DNA of 39,854 nt, from IMG/VR virus record IMGVR_UViG_3300006792_000003, positions 1 to 39,854 of that record; one strand, written 5' to 3'. Position numbers and translations under genes: made by a program. Origin of the DNA: a virus. Shown piece after piece: positions 9,430 to 12,948 of the stretch. The notes beneath the pieces are model-generated. The model saw only the letters and a program-made list of their open reading frames with translations. It searched no databases and was not told where the DNA came from. The number at the start of each line of letters is the position of its first letter. Position 1 is the stretch's first letter.

Positions 9430-11651
9430 AATGGTTTCCTCGGTGCGCCTTCGTCTATAGCCTCATGTGTTAAGGCCGTAGTCAAGCCTAGCACCGCCGC
9501 TAATTCTGGGTATGTCTGTGTCATAAATCTCGCCGCTGCCGCTTCGTTAAGCCCGGTCAACCCAATAATGCTTTTCTGGACGGCCCGCTTGTTGGCTATA
9601 TTTAATACTGTTCCAGCTGCACTGGAAGCCGCCATTGAGGTTATGCTGCCACTTAATGCCCCTGTAGTTCTTCCTGCCCGAATGAGCGCGTTTATCATAT
9701 CTGGGGCACTTCCTTTCTGAACGGCACTTGACGGGGTTCTCATTAATTTCCCCATCTCTTCAACCTGCTTCAATACTTTTATGGCGGCAGGGTTGCCCTT
9801 GAAGATATGGCCGAGTTTGCTTTCCCCGATTGACTTCAATTCGTTTGAAAATGCCGTGATATTGAAAGGTGTCTGCCCTCCTTCCAGTTTACCGGCATTC
9901 TTAAATGCCTTGTCCATAAGCCTCATAACCGTGTCGGCTTGGAGATTCTTGACGGCTATTTTACCAGACTCACCAGATTTCGACAGCGCAGAAATCAGCC
10001 TTTCCACCTCCTCGGATGGCGTGGCCTGAGAAAATATCTTGTTTGACACCTTGGACGCTTCAACAAATGGAGACCCGGTTGTTGGATTGTTATTCAGCAG
10101 TTTGGGAACCAGAGACCCTGTATCCAGAAGCTCCTTTCTGCCAATAACAGTCTGCCTTGCGTTCTCTGCCAATGTCTTAATGAATGACCTGTCATCAGCA
10201 GCCTCCTCCAGAATGTTAGTGGCTTCCAATATAGTATTATCCACCGCCTTTTTAATAGAGGTAACAGACCCTGTTGTGTCTCTCTGAAAAGCCTGATTCA
10301 ATGTTTTCCTGAACTCTTCAAAATTGCCGAGGTTCAATGGCGTCTGATTGCCGTTGAATTGGATAATCTCGCCACCTTTCCATTTGCCATCAATCAACTC
10401 CCCGCCATATCTAACCGTTGTCATTGATCCTTTTTTGGTAACATCGTCACCTAAGACGCCGAACTTAGCCGCCGCTCGCTTTATGGCATTCCGTGTTTCA
10501 TCGTTGACAGGCTTTGTGCCAAATAAAACCTCATCCACCGCATCCCTAATATGTTTTCTTGTCAAAGGAATAGCCGAGGCATTGGATTCTTTTGATAGCT
10601 TCGTCAACGCTTCGTATGCGCTCTTGATTTTTGCAGATTGCCCGCTGTCCAGCTTTGTCAAAGCGCCTTTTATTGTGCCTCCGGCCTGATCGCTGACACC
10701 AAGATCATCAGACAATCTTTTTAGCCTATTCTGAATACCAGCAGACTCCTGTGAAAGCCTTTGCCTAACCATATCAGCACCTTCATCACCCGCCATACGC
10801 TCTACCCTGACCTGCCCAGCAAAGTCATCGGCATTCTGCGTGATTCTTGACCGTAGTGTAGGCGTCTCATTGACATCAAATAGTATCTTCCTGGCCATTT
10901 CGTCCGGGGTCATCTTGTCAGGGAGACTGGACAAATCAGCCCCTTTGATATCATCAAGCGTAAGCCCAAGTTTTTTCAATGATTTGTCCAGTTCATCAGA
11001 CGGTTTAAATGCGCCGGATGACGTTGCAACAAATGCATCGTCTGTCTTGCCCAATAACTTCTTGATTAATTTACTCGCACCCCTGAATGCTGGAGGAATC
11101 GCAATAGACAATGTGGCACCTAGACCGCCGCCTAGAATAGCACCAGCGGCAGGATTATCATCTACCAGACCAACAGCAGCACCCTCAGTAGTTCCCGTAG
11201 CAAGACCAGTAATTCCTCTTTCAATCCACGGTGCAATTTTTGCCCCAACAGTAGCAAGACCCTTGCTTGTTGCCGCCCCAGCCCCCAATCCGAGAGGTGC
11301 TGTCGCCACCATATCCGTGACAAGTCCGCCCGCATAGGTGGACTTGGGATATTTTTCTTCCACAGGGGCCATTAACCGTTCATCTTCTTCATCCGCTTTG
11401 CTTGTGTCAGCGCCAAATATCTTTTTAATGCCTCGCCCGTACTGGTTGAGTCTGCTTCCTGCACTAACAAGAAATGCCTCGGCTGGATAGTCTGGAAGAA
11501 CTTCAGCCTTGACACGATCCTCATAGGCCATGTTTTCCAGTTCTTGCTGCAAAAGCATGTCTGACTTTTTAATCATAGCCTCTGTAGCGGGAGAGGGGTC
11601 TTCCTCTTCCGATGTTCTTGCGCGCATTCTTTCTAACAGAGTTTCAGCCAC
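9426..11651 (-). CDS. Large internal virion / DNA ejection protein (P22 gp16 position)
   Basis: This 741-residue protein begins at GTG 11651, overlapping the upstream TAG as TAGTG with AAAGGA upstream. After a charged N-terminus, residues about 110-200 contain glycine/alanine-rich stretches (GLGAGAATSKGLATVGAK, then AAGAILGGGLGATLSIAIPP) resembling membrane-inserting glycine zippers. The rest is long-helical. As the third of three helical genes between gp14-like and fibre genes, it takes the P22 gp16 place, so it is probably injected and forms part of the periplasmic DNA conduit. The homology to gp16 itself is positional, not sequence-proven. Confidence 0.7.
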   Translation of the reverse strand: MAETLLERMRARTSEEEDPSPATEAMIKKSDMLLQQELENMAYEDRVKAEVLPDYPAEAFLVSAGSRLNQYGRGIKKIFGADTSKADEEDERLMAPVEEKYPKSTYAGGLVTDMVATAPLGLGAGAATSKGLATVGAKIAPWIERGITGLATGTTEGAAVGLVDDNPAAGAILGGGLGATLSIAIPPAFRGASKLIKKLLGKTDDAFVATSSGAFKPSDELDKSLKKLGLTLDDIKGADLSSLPDKMTPDEMARKILFDVNETPTLRSRITQNADDFAGQVRVERMAGDEGADMVRQRLSQESAGIQNRLKRLSDDLGVSDQAGGTIKGALTKLDSGQSAKIKSAYEALTKLSKESNASAIPLTRKHIRDAVDEVLFGTKPVNDETRNAIKRAAAKFGVLGDDVTKKGSMTTVRYGGELIDGKWKGGEIIQFNGNQTPLNLGNFEEFRKTLNQAFQRDTTGSVTSIKKAVDNTILEATNILEEAADDRSFIKTLAENARQTVIGRKELLDTGSLVPKLLNNNPTTGSPFVEASKVSNKIFSQATPSEEVERLISALSKSGESGKIAVKNLQADTVMRLMDKAFKNAGKLEGGQTPFNITAFSNELKSIGESKLGHIFKGNPAAIKVLKQVEEMGKLMRTPSSAVQKGSAPDMINALIRAGRTTGALSGSITSMAASSAAGTVLNIANKRAVQKSIIGLTGLNEAAAARFMTQTYPELAAVLGLTTALTHEAIDEGAPRKPL

Positions 11652-11830
11652 TATCTAGTCCTTTGTGCATCCATTTCTGTGCGTAGTTGGTCAATTATCT
11701 CGCTTCGTGAAAGCCCGCTGGCCGACATTTCAGCGAGGATATTGTCCTCACCAAACTCCTTAACTACATCCGCCTCCGTGGTTTTAATGGCTCCAGACTC
11801 CTTGATAGACGACTCTGGTATGTGTTCCAA
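11651..11830 (-). CDS. Out-of-frame ORF: likely C-terminal continuation of the upstream ejection protein
   Basis: In the -1 frame relative to the gene at 11764-12948, an open stretch runs from a TTG at 11830 to TAG at 11653-11651. It encodes IKTTEADVVKEFGEDNILAE and then GLSRSEIIDQLRTEMDAQR, a well-formed acidic helical sequence. Its TAG overlaps the GTG of the next gene (TAGTG), like other coupled genes here, which suggests it is really translated. It has no ATG near the start and no clear ribosome binding site. It is therefore either reached by frameshifting from the upstream gene, or the two are pieces of one gene broken by a mutation or sequence error. Confidence 0.55.
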   Translation of the reverse strand: MEHIPESSIKESGAIKTTEADVVKEFGEDNILAEMSASGLSRSEIIDQLRTEMDAQRTR

Positions 11831-12948
11831 GAGTCAACCCCGCCACGGGCTGCATTGCCAGCCTCTATCTGGATATTAAAATCATCAATCATTTGCTGGA
11901 TTAATTCTTTATTGCCTTCAGAGTTAAGTTTAAAGTTGGGAACCATTTCCAACACAAACTCCCTTTCGCCTTCAGACTTTGCGCCAGTAAAAAGAGCCAG
12001 AAGGGACATGGCCTGCCGCCTCATCAGGTTTTCTGCTCTTACTTCATCTTGTGGCCTAAACCCCATCACGTTCTGGAACGTATCCAACAACCGGCTAGTG
12101 CCACCAGATTCAAACGACTCAACAAGGCTTAACAGTTTGTTCGCGTCTATAATGCCCTTGCTTGCCATGCCAATATTAGAGACAGCCCCGGCCATATCTT
12201 TACCCATACCAGACTGGAGTTTTTCCATCAAAACCTGATTCTGTTGCTCTTTGTTCTGATACTGGAGCCGGTCTTGGAAGTCTGTAAATTCCTTTTCCAT
12301 ATCTTGATATCGTACACTCTGTGCTGCTAGACGCTTTTCTTCTGGGGTTTCTTCCCCAGCAACCTGCAATCCATCCGGCATCACGCCACCATCCAGGGGA
12401 ACCACGATAGGCTCGGCCTGATTGCTCATTTGCACAACATTGGCAAGTCCGGTTGTGCCGTCTGGATTCTTTGTTTGTATCTGTGACACAGATTGTACGC
12501 TAGGCCGGTTTCCGCCTATTCGGTTCTTTAACTCAGCCGCTTGGTCAATAGCCTCTGTCGCGCCTTCAACATCACCAGATTTAAGCATGCCCCGAAGTTC
12601 CATAAGGTCATCAGTGGGAATGCCCTCATCCTCAAAGGTCTGTATCCTGTTGCTTAATACGCGCATCCATGAAGATTGCGGAGTGCCTTGCAAAATCAAC
12701 GCACTGTTCACTATCCCGTTCAACCGGGCTTCGTCCTGTTCCTGTTGCTGGCCTACCTCACCTGACTGGATTGTCTGGTCATTTATCTGGATGTTCTGGT
12801 CATTTATCTCAGCAGACTGTTCGTTGGCTTGGATAGTTTGCTTGTTCATTATCCGTTCCTGCCGATTCTGCCGCCCAGTGTTAAACGCATCCGCTATCGA
12901 AGGTCGGTTGGTACTCCGGCCGAATACTGAATTAATATCGATCGCCAT
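11764..12948 (-). CDS. Internal virion / ejection protein, glutamine-rich (P22 gp20 position)
   Basis: ATG at 12948 (MAIDINSVFGRS) has CAGGAGATAAC upstream. The product is 394 aa in this frame. Residues 25-75 are Gln/Asn-rich (NEQSAEINDQNIQINDQTIQ), followed by helices (LNGIVNSALILQGTP, IQTFEDEGIPTDDLMELRGM). This resembles phage internal proteins that count helical repeats with L..RI..L pairs. The frame ends at TAG 11766-11764 in a basic PLKPRRRM tail that looks unlike the rest, whereas the neighbouring frame continues sensibly to the next gene. A frameshift is therefore suspected. Confidence 0.7.
   Translation of the reverse strand: MAIDINSVFGRSTNRPSIADAFNTGRQNRQERIMNKQTIQANEQSAEINDQNIQINDQTIQSGEVGQQQEQDEARLNGIVNSALILQGTPQSSWMRVLSNRIQTFEDEGIPTDDLMELRGMLKSGDVEGATEAIDQAAELKNRIGGNRPSVQSVSQIQTKNPDGTTGLANVVQMSNQAEPIVVPLDGGVMPDGLQVAGEETPEEKRLAAQSVRYQDMEKEFTDFQDRLQYQNKEQQNQVLMEKLQSGMGKDMAGAVSNIGMASKGIIDANKLLSLVESFESGGTSRLLDTFQNVMGFRPQDEVRAENLMRRQAMSLLALFTGAKSEGEREFVLEMVPNFKLNSEGNKELIQQMIDDFNIQIEAGNAARGGVDSWNTYQSRLSRSLEPLKPRRRM

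Follow-up and report, generated by a model that had tools for sequence, protein, structure and literature searches.

A P22-type ejection gene whose native C-terminus lies in the -1 reading frame: a net one-base indel as the likely cause

The window, by which we mean the whole stretch of 39,854 bases analyzed, is an IMG/VR virus record from an environmental sample and carries a P22-like structural module on its minus strand. Genes of this module encode a terminase, a major head protein, an Hc3/gp10-type stabilization protein, a gp14-type head protein and three ejection-type proteins (Table 1). The gene under study is situated between the gp7-type and gp16-type genes, downstream of Hc3/gp10, i.e. 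in the place that gp20 takes in P22, where the order is gp10, gp26, gp14, gp7, gp20, gp16. By this position only it is classed as a putative P22 gene-20-type ejection gene, because gene-20 proteins differ widely from one P22-like phage to another (PMC10883804). They are highly variable and mosaic, with identities of 21-60% among most of the P22-like phages compared (PMC10883804). The product gave no PHROG match, no Pfam match above the cut-off and no blastp match to P22 gp20 (E 0.05), and the relatives that it does match are all uncharacterized. As for its upstream neighbor, the gp7-type protein of the 64% relative L003 (L003:12817-14619) has about 200 extra repeat-like residues in its first half compared with that of the window, indicating that internal segments make for differences in length of this ejection protein.

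Table 1. Features at and around the frame change, in window coordinates.
Feature	Position	Strand	Basis
gp7-type ejection protein, 506 aa	12950-14470	-	assigned by position
Frame-0 ORF, putative gene-20-type ejection protein, 394 aa	11764-12948	-	gene order gp10-type, gp14-type, gp7-type, this gene, gp16-type; blastp to L050
Stretch open in both frames, inside which the frame change must lie	11764-11833	-	codon usage; L050 and L014 alignments
-1-frame continuation, 60 sense codons plus TAG, with the native C-terminus of the gene-20-type protein	11651-11833	-	codon usage; homologous C-termini
AAGGAG, SD-like, 12 nt upstream of A_AAA	11798-11803	-	sequence scan
A_AAA tetramer in CCA-TTA-AAA-CC, the only slip candidate	11782-11785	-	sequence; motif strength from PMC4066793
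Predicted fold downstream of AAA, -27.3 kcal/mol, z = -2.0	11695-11781	-	10 of 200 shuffles as good
-1-frame TAG stop overlapping the gp16-type GTG start (TAGTG)	11651-11653	-	same one-base overlap in relatives
gp16-type ejection protein, 741 aa	9426-11651	-	relatives in Shewanella, Vibrio and Aeromonas phages

Frame 0 runs from the ATG at 12948 to a TAG at 11766-11764, and its product ends in ...DSWNTYQSRLSRSLEPLKPRRRM. In the -1 frame, a TGA at 11836-11834 is followed by an open run, LLEHIPESSIKESGAIKTTEADVVKEFGEDNILAEMSASGLSRSEIIDQLRTEMDAQRTR, up to the TAG at 11653-11651, whose G doubles as the first base of the gp16-type GTG (11651). Only the -1 frame reaches this one-base overlap; frame 0 leaves a gap of 112 nt before the gp16-type gene, whereas the adjoining junctions are tight or overlapping. 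The open run in the -1 frame is longer than expected by chance, as stop-free runs this long account for only 7% of the -1-frame codons inside the remaining structural genes. Beyond the frame-0 stop, the mean codon log-odds of the tail is +0.09, a value reached by only 3% of the off-frame stretches in this genome (the in-frame average being +0.25). A preliminary description of this DNA had reported the -1-frame continuation, and the open reading frames, the stop/start overlap, the codon usage and the homologous C-termini all bear it out. The TAGTG formed with the start of the next ejection gene was likewise read correctly, as was the CCA-TTA-AAA-CC within the overlap, where the AAA occupies 11784-11782 and no X-XXY-YYZ heptamer is found. 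Two of its figures need adjustment: the stretch open in both frames does exist, with a real extent of 11764-11833 instead of 11764-11830, and the roughly 45 additional residues of the continuation are actually 43 when counted after the AAA codon.

Homology and synteny show that the -1 segment contains the normal C-terminus of the gene, a conclusion carried mostly by the structure of the gp20/gp16 junction, with sequence likeness and codon usage in agreement. At every such junction with a readable gp16 homolog, the gene-20-type gene keeps a single frame throughout. In 14 out of 15 distinct relatives (16 loci, of which L044 and L045 are identical and were counted once), the stop codon of this gene and the gp16 ATG have one base in common (TAATG or TGATG), the sole exception being L051 with a 2-nt gap. 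The same overlap is found in Pseudoalteromonas phage H6, in P22 and in the syntenic loci L014, L016, L024, L028, L030, L036 and L055. Gene 20 of Salmonella phage P22, in the gene 7-20-16 cluster, shares with the window gene its neighborhood of Hc3/gp10, gp14-type head protein, gp7 and gp16, and its stop overlaps the gene-16 start by one base just as the -1 frame of the window does with the gp16-type start; unlike the window gene, it is continuous. Proteins similar to that of the window are encoded by the IMG/VR uncultivated-virus loci L050 (blastp E ~2e-7 to 4e-7), L046 and L014, and L048 is a close relative of L050. In all four of these a single frame carries the gene-20-type protein as far as the family junction, unlike in the window.

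The -1 tail resembles the C-terminus of the L014 protein (SASGLSRSEIIDQLRTE versus RAAGFSTRQIYDMLKVE, shuffle p = 0.0025) and, when pooled, 23 homologous C-termini (shuffle p = 0.004, z = 3.1), although each similarity is weak by itself and the related sequences are not entirely independent of one another. The same DNA read in the other frames gave z = 1.6 in frame 0 and -1.3 in frame +1. When the two frames are joined, residues 1-425 of the protein align with the whole 408 aa of the L014 protein, while frame 0 alone aligns over residues 1-179. The end of the frame-0 product, be it KPRRRM or a longer stretch, does not belong to the native frame. The proposals that the -1 segment is a real continuation and that TAGTG signals coupling were thus upheld, since the one-base overlap and the type of C-terminus recur in the relatives. 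In the homolog comparison suggested along with them, the gene-20-type frame proved to be uninterrupted in P22 and in more than 20 related or syntenic loci.

Two of these loci are of interest in themselves. In L024 (positions 5422-11199), four large genes in a row are each joined to the following one by an overlap of exactly one base (TAATG), illustrating the strictness of this type of junction in these phages. L055, a Micavibrio MAG contig that is perhaps a prophage, has a P22-like Hc3 followed by genes of 400 and 727 aa, which are the ones that show the one-base overlap.

Codon usage and homologs disagree on the position of the frame change. Within the overlap, the codon-usage signal passes from frame 0 to the -1 frame, the best point being at about 11815 (range 11809-11821), where nothing slippery is found. 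This point, some 30 bases upstream of the AAA, is favored over 11782 by about 8 bits. The alignment to L050, the closest homolog, instead puts the change at about 11788 (TTA-AAA), by about 9 bits if the BLOSUM half-bits are taken at face value, and with p = 0.0035 for the frame-0 segment up to 11788. L014 slightly prefers a change at about 11794, and L048 has no preference. An indel would be possible at any point of the overlap, a programmed slip at the AAA alone.

In our judgment, the window probably holds an ordinary gene-20-type ejection gene that has been disrupted by a net one-base indel, through error or recent mutation. Such an indel, lying somewhere in 11764-11833, would throw the last 43 to 60 codons out of frame. 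Without it, a single reading frame would extend as far as the TAG at 11653-11651, and ribosomes would pass to the gp16-type gene via the one-base stop/start overlap, as in the relatives. Either the indel was introduced by faulty assembly or sequencing, or the sequenced phage itself mutated recently; we infer both that an indel is the cause and how it may have arisen. In P22, amber mutants without the last 33 or 66 residues of gp20 yield non-functional virions (PMC10883804), so that a real and uncorrected frameshift, with its loss of 43 to 60 native residues, should be selected against if the P22 result carries over. The coding-like tail, in turn, suggests that this segment has not been long abandoned. 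Together, selection and the coding-like tail would leave an error, a recent mutation in part of the population or, with a low probability, translational correction. Transcriptional slippage was also considered and was rejected, as there is no long run of A or T (the longest A run in the overlap is 4).

Part of the window could be compared with a near-identical contig, L002 (IMGVR_UViG_3300025721_000003), which matches positions 15662-27319 with 99.97% identity (11,658 bases, 3 substitutions, no indels). The lack of indels suggests that such errors are not frequent in this assembly, which counts against an error as the origin. The frame-change site itself lies outside both L002, which stops at 15662 and 3.8 kb short of it, and L003, whose end falls within the gp7-type gene. 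Searches of IMG/VR and of phages with the gene-20 protein, and a search with the exact flanking DNA, turned up no second sequence of the region. Scans with Hc3, gp16, a small conserved neighbor and gene-20 alignments returned distant relatives only, a search of genome contigs returned one distant relative, and a gp16 survey of 385 genomes of one class returned one weak match.

The preliminary description had offered programmed frameshifting on the one hand and a mutation or sequence error on the other, and the latter is the better supported: no relative has the frame change, the candidate tetramer is weak, and codon usage places the change elsewhere. Under programmed frameshifting, a -1 slip at A_AAA (TTA-AAA-CC), aided by the AAGGAG and the downstream fold, would yield a short and a long ejection protein, with the -1-frame ribosomes coupling to the gp16-type start. 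We regard this as unlikely, and it is improbable that an SD-assisted A_AAA shift just before the gp16-type gene sets the ratio of short to long P22-type ejection protein as well as the coupling to gp16. In its favor, an SD-like element 8-14 nt upstream was found at only one of the 23 in-frame A_AAA tetramers in the structural genes, namely the candidate itself, and the fold is modestly stable (z = -2.0, or -1.1 for a longer segment), but both elements were sought after the fact and each is near the 5% level. The change placed by L050 at 11788 also falls at TTA-AAA, and A_AAA is present in IS elements known or suspected to frameshift (PMC4066793). Yet among the six tetramers that are active in E. 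coli it ranks last, with about 0.3% frameshifting together with the IS3 pseudoknot and little or none without it (PMC4066793), and the overlap offers no heptamer in its stead. Furthermore, neither the motif nor the frame change is conserved, as P22 and the more than 20 related or syntenic loci are all read in one frame, though all of these relatives are distant. The roughly 8 bits by which codon usage prefers 11815 also argue against a slip at 11782, and a mostly short product would be of little help if it behaved like the truncated gp20 of P22. A literature search yielded no programmed frameshift in a bacteriophage ejection protein. The tail-assembly chaperone gpG/gpGT of lambda, like the window protein, comes from a structural gene that changes to the -1 frame close to its 3' end (PMC5009743), but it belongs to another protein family in long-tailed phages, and its shift is common to many phages whereas that of the window occurs in no relative.

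Two other readings do without a joined protein. The -1 segment could be a separate small protein from an internal start (the TTG at 11830 or the ATG in AEMSASG), with the short frame-0 protein as the true product, as the 60 open codons with possible start codons would permit. This is very improbable, given that the homologs carry the counterpart of the segment as the C-terminus of a single protein, with no frame change at their junction, and that the TTG at 11830 has no convincing upstream ribosome-binding site. Alternatively, the frame-0 end could be a fixed and tolerated C-terminal change in this phage lineage, with the -1 remnant decaying, which the variability and mosaicism of gene-20-type proteins noted above would allow. 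There is hardly any likelihood of this either, since the remnant retains coding-like codon usage, the absence of stops and the family junction, and since C-terminal loss makes P22 virions non-functional.

Faulty sequencing or an ordinary mutation is therefore the most likely source of the frame change, and not some novel coding device. The case shows how far synteny and homology reach in testing suspected recoding in a metagenomic phage, and the one-base gp20/gp16 overlap is a family-wide rule that is useful for spotting broken ejection genes. A programmed shift would be without precedent in ejection proteins, as far as the one literature search shows. Elsewhere in the window, a gap of 531 bases (23787-24317) separates the large genes at 23376-23786 and 24318-26432; small open reading frames fill part of it and are identical in L002.
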